Shown one piece after another: positions 4,270 to 33,254 of a stretch of 33,361 nt of DNA. The notes below the pieces were generated by a model that saw only the letters and a program-made list of their open reading frames with translations, did no database searches and was not told the DNA's origin. Made by a program: the position numbers and the translations under genes. The DNA comes from Saprospiraceae bacterium. Lineage in GTDB: Bacteria; Bacteroidota; Bacteroidia; Chitinophagales; Saprospiraceae. The stretch covers positions 1 to 33,361 of the forward strand of contig JALHQW010000077.1 in the NCBI GenBank assembly GCA_022841745.1, read 5' to 3'. Every line of letters begins with the position of its first letter. Position 1 is the first letter of the stretch.

Positions 4270-4315
4270 AAATGCCCTGCTCATTGAAACTTGGACCAGA
4301 TTTCATTTTTATTTA

Positions 4316-4350
4316 CAACGGGCAGCTTCCTTTACGAAAGCTACCCGTTG
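4316..4350. terminator. Bidirectional terminator-like hairpin
   Basis: Arms CAACGGGCAGCTT (4316-4328) and AAGCTACCCGTTG (4338-4350) pair at 12 of 13 positions around a 9-nt loop, between the stops of two convergent genes. The one mismatch is a G-U wobble when read from the minus strand, so the minus-strand gene may be the main user. The flanking U-rich tracts are imperfect. Confidence 0.65.
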
Positions 4351-4366
4351 TTAGCTGGTCTTTTGG

Positions 4367-5515
4367 TTATCCTTTTACTAACCTTAAGGCAGGGATTTCT
4401 AAACCTTCACACTGAACCAAATAAGTGCCTGGTGGCAAGTTCGATATATCCTGAGCAAATGAGTTTTGACCCACAACCAAAGCAATTTCTTCTTTTCTTA
4501 AAAGCATTCCATCCAGTGAAAGAATGCAAAGATGAGCTACACTTTCTTTGGGCGATTCTATTTGGACTCTGAATAGTCCTCCTGTAGGATTGGGGTAAAT
4601 ATTGATAGATGCAACAGCGGTTGGTAACATCTCTGCAATGTTTTGTTCATTGTTCAGATAGTTTTCACAGTTGTCGTCTGACGCAAAGGCAGTTGGTTTA
4701 GCTAGGGTGTACATGTCCGTTAGAGTGCTAAACCCTGTTCGTTGCACCCAATTTTCCGTGGAATTGCGAGTAATTGCGCCAGTAGTGACCTTAGACCAAG
4801 ATGTGCCATTGTTCGTGCTACGCCAAATTTCCAACGTACTCTCCGCAGCCCCATTCAATTCAGCATCGAAATAGAACAGCCGAAGCGTTGCATTCAAATT
4901 ACTATTGTTGGTTGGTGCGATTTTGTAGAATCGGTTTATGCTGGTAATTCCAGCCGAAACCGTCTGGCTTTTATGCCCTCTATCAATCTTGGTACTGCCG
5001 AGGTTGGCAGTTGTCGTAATCTGGGCACCAATGTTTGCAACGTTTAAGCTACTGGGTGCATTCAAGCTACGGGTATGCGTAACCGTGCCAGTGGAGGTGG
5101 TAATTAGCCGAGAGTTTTGGTTCTCACCAGATAGTGTAGGACTCGTCCCGGTCAATGTTGCTATTTGACTGCCAAGGTCTAGGTTCTTACCACTTAACTT
5201 TAGCTCGCTGCTAACATTTATACCCTTCAATAACTGTACATCATTGGTAGTTTTGGCGATTTCCAATTTAAAAAAGGAACTAGTCGAACTGCCAGTGATG
5301 GAAGTGTTTGCAGCAGTAGCGGTTCCTGTCATTTTTATGGTACTACTTGCTGCTGTGAAAGTGCCGGAATTGCTGAACTTGCCATTGTCAACCACAATAA
5401 CGGGAGTACCGGAGCAAACCACGCTTGCACCGCTGTTGATAAACAAGCCACCTTGTCCGAAGCAGGCGTTTAGCGCCGGAAAAATCAAAACAAGCATCAA
5501 ATATTTGGATTTCAT
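4367..5515 (-). CDS. Secreted protein with type IX secretion C-terminal sorting domain
   Basis: A 382-residue exported protein. Residues 1-20 are a signal peptide (MKSKYLMLVLIFPALNACFG). Residues 22-280 are low-complexity, rich in Ser, Thr, Asn and Gly, with repeated beta-strand-like segments (FSNSGTFTAASSTIKMTGTA), resembling surface beta-helix or adhesin repeats. The last 75 residues are a type A sorting domain: INIYPNPTGGLFRVQIE, then GTYLVQCEGLEIPALRLVKG at the very end. The type IX machinery removes this domain and exposes or releases the protein. No catalytic motif is visible, so the function is probably structural or adhesive. Confidence 0.85.
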   Translation of the reverse strand: MKSKYLMLVLIFPALNACFGQGGLFINSGASVVCSGTPVIVVDNGKFSNSGTFTAASSTIKMTGTATAANTSITGSSTSSFFKLEIAKTTNDVQLLKGINVSSELKLSGKNLDLGSQIATLTGTSPTLSGENQNSRLITTSTGTVTHTRSLNAPSSLNVANIGAQITTTANLGSTKIDRGHKSQTVSAGITSINRFYKIAPTNNSNLNATLRLFYFDAELNGAAESTLEIWRSTNNGTSWSKVTTGAITRNSTENWVQRTGFSTLTDMYTLAKPTAFASDDNCENYLNNEQNIAEMLPTAVASINIYPNPTGGLFRVQIESPKESVAHLCILSLDGMLLRKEEIALVVGQNSFAQDISNLPPGTYLVQCEGLEIPALRLVKG

Positions 5516-29277: not shown

Positions 29278-30240
29278 ATGACTGAAAATAAAATTGCAAA
29301 ACCGTTTTTGAAGTGGGCTGGTGGCAAAACGCAACTCATTTTCGACATTGATAAGGCTTTGCCGACAGATATAATACAAACAGATTTTACATACATCGAA
29401 CCGTTTGTTGGTAGTGGTGCGGTACTTTTTTGGATGTTGAACAATTTTCCAAACTTGAAAAGGGCTGTAATTAACGATATTAACGAAGACTTAATAAATA
29501 CATATAGAACCATTGCTTCAAATCCTAACGAACTTATTTCAATTCTTGAAGTTTTGCAAAATGAATTTCACAGTTTGGAGGGAAACGAGGAAAACAAAAA
29601 ACTCTATTACTACCATAAAAGAGAATTGTATAATTCAAGAAAAGAAGAACAAAGTGGACAAGCGGCTTTGTTTATTTTCCTTAATCGTACCTGCTTTAAT
29701 GGTCTGTATAGGGTTAATCGTAAAAATGAATATTATGTGCCAATGGGCGGCTATAAACGCCCGACTATTTGCGATGAAGATAATATTTTAGTGGTAAGTA
29801 AAGCCTTACAAAAAGTGGAAATTTTGTGCGGAGATTTTGAGCAGACTTTAGAATACACAAATAACAATTCTTTGTTTTATTTCGACCCACCATATAAACC
29901 GTTAAGCGAAACTTCAAGTTTCAATTCTTACGCAAAAGATGAATTTAATGACAGCGAACAAATTCGTCTGAGAGATTTTTGCAACAGACTTGACGCTTTA
30001 AATCATACTTGGATTTTAAGCAATTCAGGCGTGAAAGGGAAAGATTTAAACGATAACTTTCTTGACGATTTGTATTCTGACTTTTGCATTCAAAGAGTCG
30101 ATGCAAGACGAAGCATTAACGCTAATCCAGAAAATAGTTATTTGGACGTTACATTCGGTTGGGCTTTCCGTTCCAATCTTTTTGTTCATTCCCTGCAAAA
30201 TGGAATTCCACCTCAATCCCTAACGCAATCAGTTGCATAA
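29278..30240 (+). CDS. dpnM-like: D12-class adenine-N6 DNA methyltransferase (DpnM/Dam-like) with atypical C-terminus
   Basis: 320 residues. Alpha-class Dam family: motif X/I FLKWAGGKTQLI (10-21) and EPFVGSGAVLF (about 41-51), FNGLYRVNRKNEYYVPMGGY (about 140-159), motif IV FDPPYKPLSETSSF (202-215) with DPPY. The PLSETSxFxSY block is shared with DpnM and Dam, which methylate GATC, so GATC specificity is likely but not proven. The usual end (NANP followed by a R-G-x-x-x-E-L-L-I-x-N-Y strand) is absent: after SINANPE (about 279-285) the frame enters a repeat element (30151-30240) and reads LFVHSLQNGIPPQSLTQSVA. This is a C-terminal replacement or frameshift and may inactivate the enzyme. dpnC follows after 1 nt. 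Confidence 0.85.
   Translation: MTENKIAKPFLKWAGGKTQLIFDIDKALPTDIIQTDFTYIEPFVGSGAVLFWMLNNFPNLKRAVINDINEDLINTYRTIASNPNELISILEVLQNEFHSLEGNEENKKLYYYHKRELYNSRKEEQSGQAALFIFLNRTCFNGLYRVNRKNEYYVPMGGYKRPTICDEDNILVVSKALQKVEILCGDFEQTLEYTNNNSLFYFDPPYKPLSETSSFNSYAKDEFNDSEQIRLRDFCNRLDALNHTWILSNSGVKGKDLNDNFLDDLYSDFCIQRVDARRSINANPENSYLDVTFGWAFRSNLFVHSLQNGIPPQSLTQSVA
30151..30240. repeat. Bacteroidota-type repeat/cassette-end element
   Basis: GTTGGGC (30158-30164, matches GTTRRRY) and CCCTAACGC (30218-30226) are imperfect complements at the ends of a partly palindromic stretch (core TTCCGTTCCAATC and TGGAATTCCACC). I remember similar stretches scattered in Bacteroidota genomes, but cannot name the element. 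It supplies the 3' end of the methylase gene and reaches to the dpnC start. Confidence 0.5.
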
Positions 30241-30241
30241 A

Positions 30242-31021
30242 ATGAATTTAGCTTTCAATACATATTTAGCAGAAGGCTATTCAAGCAATTCTCAAATCGC
30301 ACGATTATTGACGGAGAATTGGGTTTTAAATAATTCATATTGTCCGAGTTGTGGAGATTTACCATTAAATGAGTTTGAAAACAACCGTCCTGTTGCTGAT
30401 TTTTATTGTAAAAAGTGTAGTGAAGAATTTGAGTTGAAAAGTAAAAGCGGAAAACTTTCAAATACAATTACAGATGGAGCGTACTCTAAAATGATTGAAA
30501 GAATTAATTCGGAAAATAATCCAAATTTTTTCTTTCTGACATATACAAAACAATGGACAGTAAATGATTTTTTGATAATTCCTAAACAGTTTTTTACCCC
30601 AGAAATCATAATCAAAAGACCTCCATTAGCCGGAACTGCAAGAAGAGCAGGTTGGATTGGTTGTAATATAGATATTTCTAAGATAGCTGGATCAGGGAAA
30701 GTATTTTTAATAAAGAACTCTAAGGTAATTGACCGAGAAATTGTCAATCAATCTTTTAATAAGACATTATTTCTACGCCAAAAATCAAGTGATGCTAAAG
30801 GATGGATATTGGATATTATGAAGTGTGTTGATGAAATTAAAGCAGATATTTTTAACCTTGATGAAGTCTATAATTTTGAACAAAAGCTCAAATTGAAATA
30901 TCCTAGCAACAATTTCATTAAAGATAAAATCAGGCAACAACTTCAAATTCTTCGTAATAAAGGTATAATTGAGTTTGTTGGTCGTGGTAAATATAAAAAG
31001 ATAAAATATGGGAACCTTTAA
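30242..31021 (+). CDS. dpnC: DpnI-type methyl-directed restriction endonuclease
   Basis: 259 residues, close to the 254 of DpnI, and co-linear with it from the first residue (MNLAFNTYLAEGYSSNSQIA versus the remembered DpnI opening). The Zn site cysteines are in YCPSCG (34, 37) and FYCKKC (56, 59). The PD-(D/E)XK centre is complete: Asp53 in RPVADFY, Glu64 and Lys66 in EEFELKSK, the same numbers as in DpnI. The C-terminal winged helix (KDKIRQQLQILRNKGIIEFV, GRGKYKKI) is present. DpnI cuts GATC only when the A is methylated. Everything looks intact and active. Start is ATG 30242; it overlaps dpnD by 14 nt. Confidence 0.95.
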   Translation: MNLAFNTYLAEGYSSNSQIARLLTENWVLNNSYCPSCGDLPLNEFENNRPVADFYCKKCSEEFELKSKSGKLSNTITDGAYSKMIERINSENNPNFFFLTYTKQWTVNDFLIIPKQFFTPEIIIKRPPLAGTARRAGWIGCNIDISKIAGSGKVFLIKNSKVIDREIVNQSFNKTLFLRQKSSDAKGWILDIMKCVDEIKADIFNLDEVYNFEQKLKLKYPSNNFIKDKIRQQLQILRNKGIIEFVGRGKYKKIKYGNL

Positions 31022-31385
31022 AATTGAAATTCAAGAGTTCTTGTCAAGAATTGTTGAAGTTGAAGCTAATTCAATCGATGAAGCAATTTCTAAAGTTCGT
31101 GAAATGTATAAAAATGAAGAAATTGTTTTAGACAGTGAAGATTATACGACAACAGAAATTGAAGAATACAAAGATGAGATGAATGACCCAAGAATTATTT
31201 TAAGAGACAGGCTCATTGAAAATGGTATTTCTATTAAAGATGCTAATCTAATAGCTCTTGATGCAGGAAGTTCACAAGCTTATGTCGACATTGAATATTT
31301 AAAGGATTTTGACCTTTCTGAAAACCTATTCAAAATAGCTTTGAAATTAGTTTCAGAGTTCTATTCGGGAAAGCTCTTCGAATAG
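31008..31385 (+). CDS. dpnD: DpnD/PcfM-family protein
   Basis: 125 residues. The N-terminal 50 residues (FKIEIQEFLSRIVEVEANSI, DEAISKVREMYKNEEIVLDS) match the short domain of the DpnD/PcfM family, the protein encoded after dpnC in the pneumococcal DpnI cassette; its role is unknown. Residues 60-125 are a helical acidic tail. It overlaps the end of dpnC by 14 nt, as expected for a coupled pair. Confident assignment by sequence and context together. Confidence 0.85.
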   Translation: MGTFKIEIQEFLSRIVEVEANSIDEAISKVREMYKNEEIVLDSEDYTTTEIEEYKDEMNDPRIILRDRLIENGISIKDANLIALDAGSSQAYVDIEYLKDFDLSENLFKIALKLVSEFYSGKLFE

Positions 31386-31419
31386 TTGATAGTTAACAAT
31401 TCTCTTATTAGGAGATACA

Positions 31420-32271
31420 ATGGAACTTTTACCAGAATTTGAACATAAGTTTGATATGGTTTTTGCAGATCCGCCATATTTTTTATCGAACAATGGCTTA
31501 TCAATTCAAAACGGACAAATAGTAAGTGTAAACAAAGGGAAATGGGACAAATCTGAAGGATTTGGGTTTATTAACGACTTCAACAGAAAATGGCTTTCAT
31601 TAGTTCGTAACAAAATGAAAGATGATGCTACCATTTGGATAAGTGGAACAATGCACAATATTTTTTCGGTTGGTCAAATTTTGACTGAGTTAGGTTTTAA
31701 AATTCTCAACATTGTGACTTGGGAAAAGACTAACCCACCACCAAATTTTTCTTGTCGTTACTTTACTTATTCGACAGAGCAAATCATTTGGGCAAGAAAA
31801 AGCGAGAAAGTTCCGCATTATTTCAATTACGAATTAATGAAGCAACTCAATGGTGAAAAACAAATGAAAGATGTTTGGAAATTGCCAGCAATCGCAACTT
31901 GGGAAAAATCTTGTGGTAAACATCCGACACAAAAACCACTTTCGGTTTTGACAAGACTTATTTTGGCTTCGACAAAGCCAAATGCTTGGGTTTTAGATCC
32001 GTTTACAGGCAGTTCGACAACAGGAATTGCGGCAAACTTGGCTAACAGACGATTTTTGGGAATTGATCAGGAAGAAATTTTTTTGACCATCAGCAAAAAC
32101 AGAAAACTTGAAATTGAAAATCCAAAAATAGCAGCAACATACAGACAAAAAATTGGTAGTTTAAACGATAAAAAAGAGCTTGAATTGTTCCTCGTTGAAG
32201 AGCCAAGAACAGAATACAAAACAGAGCTAACCCTTCAAAATAAAAAGGGGGATCGGCTAACATCTGTTTAG
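31420..32271 (+). CDS. dpnA-like: DpnA-type DNA adenine methyltransferase, unusual N-terminus
   Basis: 283 residues from ATG 31420. Beta-class order: motif IV DMVFADPPYFLSNNGLSIQN near the start, the target-recognition region (TWEKTNPPPNFSCRYFTYST, GEKQMKDVWKLPAI) and SCGKHPTQKPLSVLTRLILA, then motif I VLDPFTGSSTTGIAANLANR. This is the pattern of DpnA, which methylates GATC also in single-stranded DNA. Homology continues upstream of the ATG (ILLLGDT before MELLPEF, matching a strand in DpnA), back to a TAG at 31390, but that stretch has no ATG, GTG or TTG; ATT at 31399 is the only plausible non-standard start. So it is truncated, or starts unusually. It has a 50-residue C-terminal extension. 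Confidence 0.88.
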   Translation: MELLPEFEHKFDMVFADPPYFLSNNGLSIQNGQIVSVNKGKWDKSEGFGFINDFNRKWLSLVRNKMKDDATIWISGTMHNIFSVGQILTELGFKILNIVTWEKTNPPPNFSCRYFTYSTEQIIWARKSEKVPHYFNYELMKQLNGEKQMKDVWKLPAIATWEKSCGKHPTQKPLSVLTRLILASTKPNAWVLDPFTGSSTTGIAANLANRRFLGIDQEEIFLTISKNRKLEIENPKIAATYRQKIGSLNDKKELELFLVEEPRTEYKTELTLQNKKGDRLTSV

Positions 32272-32651: not shown

Positions 32652-33254
32652 ATGGCCTCAGACCCTCAACCCGTTCAAGCCTCGCCGGAAATGTCAGAAT
32701 TCGAGTGGGGCGACTTGCTCGACGGCATCGAGCGCCAGAAATGCCTCGTGGTGCTTGGGCCTGAAATCTATACAGCAGAGGGGCAGCCGTCCACCGAAAG
32801 ACGCCTCGCCGAGTTCCTGCGGGCGCAGGCCGACCAACTCCGCATCCGTGTTTACGACAACGGCTGGTTTCATTCCCTGCCAATGGGCAACGAAAGCTCC
32901 CCGGTCAGGCAGGTCAAGGCTTTTTACGACCAAGCCTCGCCCAAGGGCGAAGAAATCCTGCGTTCCATCGCCAGTATCAGATTTCCCATTGTGCTTTCCC
33001 TCAATCCCGACGACAAGCTGCGCCGTGCCTTCCAGGGCTATTCGGCTAGCTTCGAGACCTATATCCGCAACGAGCCTTACAGCAAAGACCTGGAGCCGCC
33101 CAACCCCGAAAGGCCCATCGTCTTCAATATGCTGGGTCAACTCGAAGACCGCAACTCACTCGTGCTTACCTACGACGATTTCTACGACTACCTAAAGTCC
33201 TCTTTTGGGGGCAATAGCATGTCGCCCATTTTGATTAGTGCCATTAATCTCTAA
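32652..33254 (+). CDS. Truncated SIR2-like domain protein
   Basis: 200 residues. It resembles the SIR2-like proteins common in Bacteroidota: FEWGDLLDGIERQKCLVVLG opening with a G-P-E-I in place of the Rossmann G-A-G-I, FPIVLSLNPDDKLRRAF (equivalent of S-T-N-Y-D), and IVFNMLGQLEDRNSLVLTYD followed by DFYDYL. The usual K-L-H-G becomes N-M-L-G, so the catalytic His is missing, as in many of this group. The frame stops after GGNSMSPILISAINL, where homologues continue with another domain, so the 3' part is lost. It may be an inactive remnant of a defence or signalling protein. Palindromic promoter upstream. Confidence 0.7.
   Translation: MASDPQPVQASPEMSEFEWGDLLDGIERQKCLVVLGPEIYTAEGQPSTERRLAEFLRAQADQLRIRVYDNGWFHSLPMGNESSPVRQVKAFYDQASPKGEEILRSIASIRFPIVLSLNPDDKLRRAFQGYSASFETYIRNEPYSKDLEPPNPERPIVFNMLGQLEDRNSLVLTYDDFYDYLKSSFGGNSMSPILISAINL

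Follow-up and report, generated by a model that had tools for sequence, protein, structure and literature searches.

A probable endonuclease swap that placed DpnI between two clipped methylases of a GATC restriction-modification operon in a Saprospiraceae bacterium

How can the gene for DpnI, an endonuclease that cuts GATC sites only when their adenine is methylated (Gm6ATC), come to lie in one operon with genes of two GATC methylase families? The question is raised by positions 29278 to 32271 of the window, by which we mean the whole stretch of 33,361 nucleotides analysed here (contig JALHQW010000077.1 of assembly GCA_022841745.1, Saprospiraceae bacterium, phylum Bacteroidota). DpnI and an active GATC methylase cannot share a cell, and the route from one state to the other is puzzling. 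A Streptococcus pneumoniae strain has the DpnI or the DpnII system, not both (PMC3573125; this and the other papers are cited here from excerpts). The conflict to which a preliminary description of the window had drawn attention is real, and among the outcomes it offered we favour dead methylases, both of which lack an end. We consider it probable (roughly 0.75) that an endonuclease swap within a GATC restriction-modification (R-M) operon disarmed both methylases and left DpnI to cut incoming Gm6ATC DNA. The four tightly spaced plus-strand open reading frames (ORFs) lie where the preliminary description had placed them, and comparisons with Pfam, NCBIfam, PADLOC and Protein Data Bank (PDB) sequences identified them as methylase M, DpnI, DpnD and methylase A. 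The features are as follows:

29278-30132, plus strand: residues 1-285 of M, the core of a Dam/DpnM-type GATC adenine methylase with intact DPPY and FVGSGA motifs (PF02086, TIGR00571, PDB 2dpm, alignment with 17 DpnI-linked relatives)
30133-30240, plus strand: foreign 3' tail of the M frame including its stop codon, replacing the usual ...EKRGxLxELLITN end
30153-30231, minus strand: Flavo-1 RNA-like repeat at the M/DpnI junction (36.9 bits, E 2.7e-5; gathering score 42)
30242-31021, plus strand: DpnI, Gm6ATC-dependent endonuclease with catalytic and winged-helix domains (PF06044, PF17726, PDB 4esj, residue check)
31008-31385, plus strand: DpnD/PcfM-type protein (residues 1-50) with a second small module (residues 57-124) (PF14207, tblastn pieces)
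31393-31419, plus strand: unstarted 5' remnant of A, TTA ACA ATT CTC TTA TTA GGA GAT ACA, with an in-frame TAG just 5' of it
31420-32271, plus strand: A, a DpnA-type beta-class adenine methylase with no conventional start 5' of its GD motif (PF01555, PDB 6pbd)

The entire M ORF (29278-30240) matched PF02086 (E 1.7e-63) and TIGR00571 (E 1.9e-83), and its best PDB match was DpnM (2dpm). The D12 methylase named in the preliminary description was thus confirmed as to family and not as to completeness: the match to TIGR00571 stopped at position 256 of 267, so that the final 11 model positions were missing, and the Dam C-terminal motif was absent. About 15 C-terminal residues are gone, and a tail of about 35 residues is read through the Flavo-1-like repeat instead, ending in a TAA one base 5' of the DpnI ATG. 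The TIGR00571 match ended at 240-259 of 267 in all 14 DpnI-linked M tested, and at 267 in all five M tested from DpnI-free loci. Flavo-1 reached its gathering score immediately 5' of DpnI in nine of 15 relatives that we picked ourselves, the window copy scoring below it, and the M tails of different loci use different reading frames. AlphaFold2 models of the window M, built on 18 related sequences and with a mean predicted local distance difference test score (pLDDT) of ~70, had a moderately confident core and a disordered tail, with pLDDT below 50 and no strand at residues 279-320. We considered and rejected the Flavo-1 tail as a stand-in for the lost strand: AlphaFold2 placed no strand there, and the tail substitution test was too small, the ratio of nonsynonymous to synonymous differences per site (pN/pS) being 0.00-1.87 over seven pairs, one of them undefined, on 29-34 codons, too few to judge. 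No further copies of the two junction stretches were found in the own genome at the DNA level at E ≤ 0.001. In the L036/L042 pair (loci are numbered with L), the 3' end of M and Flavo-1, about 200 to 20 bp 5' of DpnI, were 98-99% identical in 90-column windows, with 74-97% identity in M upstream and 78-98% in DpnI, as if this junction had been exchanged separately or stood under constraint at the RNA level.

The damage to A is at its other end. A matched PF01555 (E 3.6e-55), with CcrM (6pbd) as its best PDB match, so the DpnA-type assignment of the preliminary description stands for the family (DpnA/CcrM-type), while the gene is incomplete. In frame 5' of the ATG at 31420 come a GDT motif and then a TAG, with no ATG, GTG or TTG between them. 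A is therefore without its first ~14 codons, and the earliest ATG it can use lies at about codon 21 in the numbering of intact relatives, which read P(F/Y)(F/Y)KSxDKxFxLLxGD at the position of the remnant.

DpnI, lying between them, is complete. PF06044 covered residues 4-183 (E 6.2e-79) and PF17726 residues 187-256 (E 2e-32), and 151 of 254 residues were identical to the DpnI of the PDB. The catalytic residues Asp53, Glu64 and Lys66 were retained, bearing out the full-length homologue that had been described, as were Gln18, the four zinc cysteines, Leu129, Arg135, Trp138 and Gly140 (active-site, zinc and m6A-pocket residues as named in PMC4117772). The start is most likely the ATG at 30242 rather than the TTG at 30233, because the alignment to the PDB DpnI begins there. 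By analogy, the window DpnI is predicted to cut Gm6ATC and not GATC, and would do so in its host. FcyTI of Flavobacterium cyanobacteriorum cuts Gm6ATC and was more than 1,000-fold toxic in Dam+ Escherichia coli (PMC11037411). The DpnI of locus L018, from the same species, had 151 identities to DpnI and was identical to the window DpnI at 222 of 259 residues (86%). FcyTI is apparently this L018 protein, judging by the species and the identity value (151/257, or 58.75%, as against 58.7% printed for FcyTI in PMC11037411) rather than by accession. A cell expressing an FcyTI-like enzyme should not tolerate Gm6ATC.

What the operon looked like before can be judged from relatives without DpnI. We searched M in 395 genomes of the phylum (E ≤ 1e-60) and 395 genomes of the class (E ≤ 1e-75). 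It was found in 16 and 12 genomes, respectively, 23 of them distinct, and DpnI adjoined M in two, the own genome and G023, where the locus resembles L028. The M regions of the other 21 genomes were all fetched; a search started from M would miss M stubs, but not an M short by only 15 residues. All 21 M frames carried the Dam-type C-terminal motif, and none of the 21 regions had a DpnI match. At least six of these loci held a DpnII-family endonuclease (PF04556, E 1.4e-69 to 2.8e-96), which lay directly 3' of M with A further downstream in L123, L158, L159, L161 and L162, and one small ORF from M in L164, where there was no DpnA-type gene. These neighbours were assigned by Pfam scans for 11 of the 21 M, additionally by BLAST against the L123 endonuclease for L157-L171, and by eye for the remainder. 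A was present downstream of M in eight of the 21 fetched stretches, each time with the N-terminal block P-x-x-K-S-x-D-K-x-F-x-L-L-x-G-D. Because Bacteroidota relatives carry M, a DpnII endonuclease (B) and A, the probable parent order is M-B-A. The missing dpnB remarked on in the preliminary description is indeed absent from the window, and a PF04556 scan of the own genome gave no match; the relatives, in contrast, carry dpnB in the very slot that DpnI occupies. In six other loci (L124, L126 and L168-L171), M was paired with a DUF6996/DUF6997 protein, which PADLOC lists as a type II endonuclease (families checked in L124 and L126, the others assigned by similarity to the L126 protein). A DUF6996/DUF6997 protein beside a Dam-type M may represent an uncharacterised family of GATC endonucleases.

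The ancestral specificity of M points to GATC, because the base-reading residues are kept and DpnII-family endonucleases are neighbours of its relatives. GATC is read in EcoDam by Lys9, Leu122, Arg124 and Pro134, Arg137 being a phosphate contact (PMC10073500), and in the alignment to EcoDam the window M kept the equivalents of all four. At the Arg137 position, DpnI-linked M have Ser, Gly or Lys, and the same Ser or Gly occurred in M beside DpnII-family endonucleases, e.g., in L123 and L159. In a tree of M with 19 DpnI-linked rows and 13 of the 21 DpnI-free rows, the window M fell into one group with L020 and with five M from DpnI-free loci; three of these five adjoin DpnII-family endonucleases. 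L123, L158 and L159 are among the nearest relatives of the window M.

The same kind of leftover recurs well beyond the window. Few genomes of the phylum carry PF06044 (11 of 395, nine above the cut-off). In a wider DpnI scan, 142 of 192 candidate stretches proved to be relatives; the best 80 and the window make up the 81 loci considered here. None of the 81 showed the Dam C-terminal motif within 1.5 kb 5' of DpnI, although for eight of them the available upstream sequence was shorter than 1.5 kb. Over the 79 loci assessable for M, 19 had a near-full-length but 3'-cut M, 22 had a 5' stub and 38 had none, so that the window and 40 further loci (41 in total) retain a 5' part of M; some stubs rest on weak matches (L027, L043, L056 and L075, E 0.004-0.07). 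Remnants of A were retained in 35 loci: among the 76 assessable ones, A began at residue 20 or before in 12, at residues 21-100 in 11 and only past residue 100 in another 12, with none in 41. What survives of M is its 5' part and what survives of A lies later in that gene, the pattern predicted if DpnI displaced the middle of an operon. Nine of the 12 A that reach residue 20 or before retain the GD motif without a preceding ATG, GTG or TTG, and L090 has lost the GD motif in frame. An M 5' stub ahead of DpnI was found in Bacteroidota, Ignavibacteriota, Moraxella and Streptococcus, with later parts of A in the first three. Both remnants occurred at the two Moraxella loci (L053 and L058), and Streptococcus anginosus L083 had a 40-residue DpnM stub 5' of DpnI (E 5e-13 to 2dpm) with no A seen there.

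Such recurrence excludes chance juxtaposition. An assembly chimera has next to no probability: many loci are contigs of metagenome-assembled genomes (MAGs), but the same gene order, with matching junctions, was seen both in the isolates L018 (F. cyanobacteriorum) and L020 (Pelobium manganitolerans) and in MAGs from at least two phyla, which refutes it.

One pair of loci gives direct evidence of recombination. Between L017 and L018, the synonymous divergence (dS) was 0.02 for DpnI and 0.95 for M. In 60-column windows, identity stayed mostly at 70-90% over M, climbed to 95-100% about 160 bp 5' of the DpnI ATG and kept that level through Flavo-1, DpnI and DpnD. A recombination breakpoint lies within M, whose 3' end served as the arm with which the DpnI segment moved. 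The tree of M also counts in favour of exchange: the DpnI label requires 6 changes on it (4-6 in bootstraps), at least three of them forced by the starred branches.

These observations suggest the following course of events. The ancestor would have been an ordinary GATC R-M operon consisting of M (DpnM-type), B (DpnII-family endonuclease) and A (DpnA-type). A segment with DpnI and DpnD would have replaced B, the replaced stretch including the final ~15 codons of M at one end and the initial ~14 codons of A at the other; because it reached into both genes, a single exchange would have cut the end of M and the start of A. With both methylases disarmed, the GATC sites of the host would be unmethylated, and DpnI would be safe to express and would destroy incoming Gm6ATC DNA. 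In other lineages, the leftovers would have worn away starting at DpnI, M losing its 3' part until a 5' stub remained and A its 5' part until a 3' stub remained.

The M frame appears to have been preserved as an open frame as far as the DpnI start, probably to let translation of M feed into that of DpnI, as in the parent M-B operons. The M frame ended between 10 nucleotides before and 35 nucleotides after the DpnI ATG in 29 of the 41 M remnants. Where at least 30 nucleotides of non-M spacer were present, a stop near the ATG was found in 18 of 27 cases for the M frame and in 16 of 54 for the other two frames (Fisher p 0.0016, a value that is too small, with limits set by us and related loci counted as independent). 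In the five operons with an endonuclease directly after M, the frames of the two genes abut or overlap. Retained translational coupling, which these frames probably reflect, would explain the open M frame.

Apart from the limits of this frame test, several observations weigh against the proposed exchange or against dead methylases. The DpnI label was still clustered on the M tree, its 6 changes comparing with a mean of 10.4 after shuffling, and only two of 500 shuffles were as low. One clade of five DpnI-linked M holds no DpnI-free member, and M dS was not above DpnI dS in L018/L021, L018/L028, L021/L028 and L036/L042. Long co-existence of M and DpnI is possible, because M dS is no larger than DpnI dS in some pairs and the label is clustered. 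M also looks constrained: its pairwise ratio of nonsynonymous to synonymous divergence (dN/dS) was 0.03-0.14 within four DpnI-linked clades, only one of the 19 near-full-length DpnI-linked M (L020) had a frameshift, deviations at invariant columns averaged 0.68 in DpnI-linked M versus 1.5 in 10 DpnI-free M, and the window M retains its catalytic motifs. The deviations of the window M affect N153 and F262, which all other rows share, and the nearly invariant D251; two deviations are not unusual there. The AlphaFold2 models do not prove M inactive, and two more D12 genes, below the TIGR00571 cut-off, are present in the own genome (contigs C52 and C121). A is not clearly dead everywhere: it has a new ATG 5' of the GD motif in L028 and retains nearly its entire N-terminus behind a TTG in L075. 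DpnI itself had an in-frame stop in six of the 81 loci and was split in L088. Progressive decay of M, as a candidate explanation, was supported by neither dN/dS nor the invariant-column deviations and was rejected. The constraint on M reflects either recombination importing M sequence shaped elsewhere, which is plausible because L017/L018 give direct evidence of recombination, or usefulness of M beside DpnI; the data do not separate the two.

The second of these options is the rival that survives best, although we regard it as unlikely. The 3'-cut M, and perhaps A, would keep a selected function, as a partly active or controlled methylase or as a GATC-binding regulator of DpnI, and the operon would be a working unit. 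The low dN/dS of M speaks for it, together with the intact frame of 18 of the 19 near-full-length M and the invariance of the catalytic motifs; in addition, inspection by eye shows a GRAFRSNLLFV-like stretch, loosely similar to the lost strand, in the tail of the window M and in those of several relatives, and the tail pN/pS was 0.00-0.14 in three L017/L018/L023 pairs. However, M is a short stub or unseen in 60 of the 79 assessable DpnI loci, the tails lie in differing frames between loci and are modelled without a strand, the tail pN/pS over all seven pairs varies too widely on too little sequence to judge, and recombination within M can bring in sequence selected elsewhere. A more specific version, in which the M core without its last strand is a selected partner of DpnI, is rather doubtful: it would be a folded, GATC-binding leader, perhaps a brake or sensor tying the DpnI level to the GATC state, in a cassette that moves by recombination through its M arm.

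It is very unlikely that M and A have a target different from GATC and so coexist with DpnI. Such a change, one of the possibilities raised in the preliminary description, might be read from the absence of an equivalent of EcoDam Arg137, in whose place DpnI-linked M have Ser, Gly or Lys. This residue is only a phosphate contact, though, the base-reading residues being kept (PMC10073500), and M beside DpnII-family endonucleases (L123 and L159) share the Ser or Gly; altered specificity through a missing Arg137 equivalent was rejected on both grounds. The window M retains the GATC-reading residues of EcoDam and groups with DpnI-free M of which three in five adjoin DpnII-family endonucleases, which speaks against this proposal as a whole.

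A suicide-type defence, likewise proposed earlier, in which methylation and cleavage are induced separately and jointly kill the infected cell, is highly improbable. All the genes do lie in one operon, and a DpnI homologue is strongly toxic to Dam+ E. coli (PMC11037411), but the ends of M and A are missing, M was unseen in 38 of 79 and A in 41 of 76 assessable DpnI loci, and the abutting frames of M and DpnI favour joint rather than separate expression. Counting stubs as well, M is reduced or unseen in 60 of 79 DpnI loci, so DpnI does not need M.

The DpnD gene directly follows DpnI, in the order dpnC then dpnD, and PF14207 covers only residues 4-46 of its product. It looks like a fusion of two small proteins, because its second half (residues 57-124) sits in a different frame or ORF in L021, L057 and L090. 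The G+C content of the operon island is 29-35%, and that of its flanks is 45-60%, which suits acquired DNA. Just 3' of the operon, an ORF at 32652-33254 had a weak SIR2_2 match (PF13289, 24.2 bits; cut-off 24.5), so a defence-type gene may adjoin it. Elsewhere in the own genome, the sole other TIGR00571 match above the cut-off adjoins an EcoRV-family endonuclease; this endonuclease family is found with its D12 methylase away from the window, on contig C53 (L002, 530-2388; PF09233, E 1e-103). There were five other PF01555 matches, three of which were read and had SPPY or DLPY motifs, the two others being weak.

Some other loci showed further variations. A RhuM-family gene (PF13310) lies between DpnD and A in L125 (3074-4081) and in L028, and A there has an ATG before the GD motif. 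L028 also has a transfer-messenger RNA gene at 4297-4662, a short way 5' of M. In L029 (2520-4148), a different DpnA-type methylase was matched to about residue 190 and was followed by a repeat-like stretch and then DpnI, which looks like the same kind of exchange with A rather than M upstream. Searches for phage or plasmid carriage of DpnI gave one partial phage match, one short viral-contig match and two odd PLSDB records (NZ_CP119142.1 and NZ_CP119140.1, Neisseria gonorrhoeae "plasmids" of 2.17 Mb that look like chromosomes). With such sparse, partial matches, carriage by mobile elements was dropped as an explanation.

If the swap took place as proposed, the loci suggest a one-step route between the two incompatible states: the arriving DpnI segment takes out the endonuclease and trims both methylase genes, and what is left of these can offer homology for further exchange. 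Operons that combine a methylase with DpnI may then be wrongly annotated as complete systems. The window operon, for one, is not a DpnII R-M system, having no PF04556 endonuclease, no complete M and no start of A before the GD motif. Compared with the M-DpnII-A operons of Bacteroidota (L123, L158, L159, L161 and L162), it has M and A of the same families in the same order; unlike it, those operons have a DpnII-family endonuclease, complete M and A, and no DpnI.

The preliminary description knew of no described system with this layout. We likewise found no M-DpnI-DpnD-A operon in the open-access literature searched, though the principle is in print for Neisseria (PMC4269198 and PMC516771). There, the excerpts describe drg (dam replacing gene, NmeBII), a DpnI-type gene inserted in dam that truncates dam in some strains, and the dam+/drg- and dam-/drg+ states were exclusive in all 84 isolates tested. 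The window and 40 further DpnI loci resemble drg in that a DpnI-type gene adjoins a truncated Dam-family gene. In function, the window operon would match both drg and the pneumococcal DpnI system, with a DpnI-type nuclease acting in a cell that has lost its GATC methylase. In the Neisseria excerpts, however, a solitary dam was replaced, with no DpnII-type endonuclease or DpnA, whereas the swap proposed for the window took the endonuclease from a complete R-M operon and one end from each methylase. FcyTI, apparently the L018 DpnI, is likewise a Gm6ATC nuclease but was studied as a stand-alone enzyme, and among more than 1,000 winged-helix fusion genes, 87% had no methylase within three genes (PMC11037411); the excerpts of that paper make no mention of cut methylases beside FcyTI. 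New with respect to the open-access literature searched are the proposed swap inside an M-endonuclease-A operon, the clipping of both methylases, the broad distribution of such loci, and the M frame that stays open as far as DpnI. The S. pneumoniae cassettes consist of the same families (DpnM, DpnA and the DpnII endonuclease; DpnI and DpnD), and the DpnI segment of the window likewise replaces a GATC system. They differ in that M and A flank the endonuclease in the parent of the window operon, and in that the exchange here was within the operon, in the endonuclease slot, leaving a cut M and a cut A on either side. The recurring stubs tie the pneumococcal cassettes and Neisseria drg to one theme.

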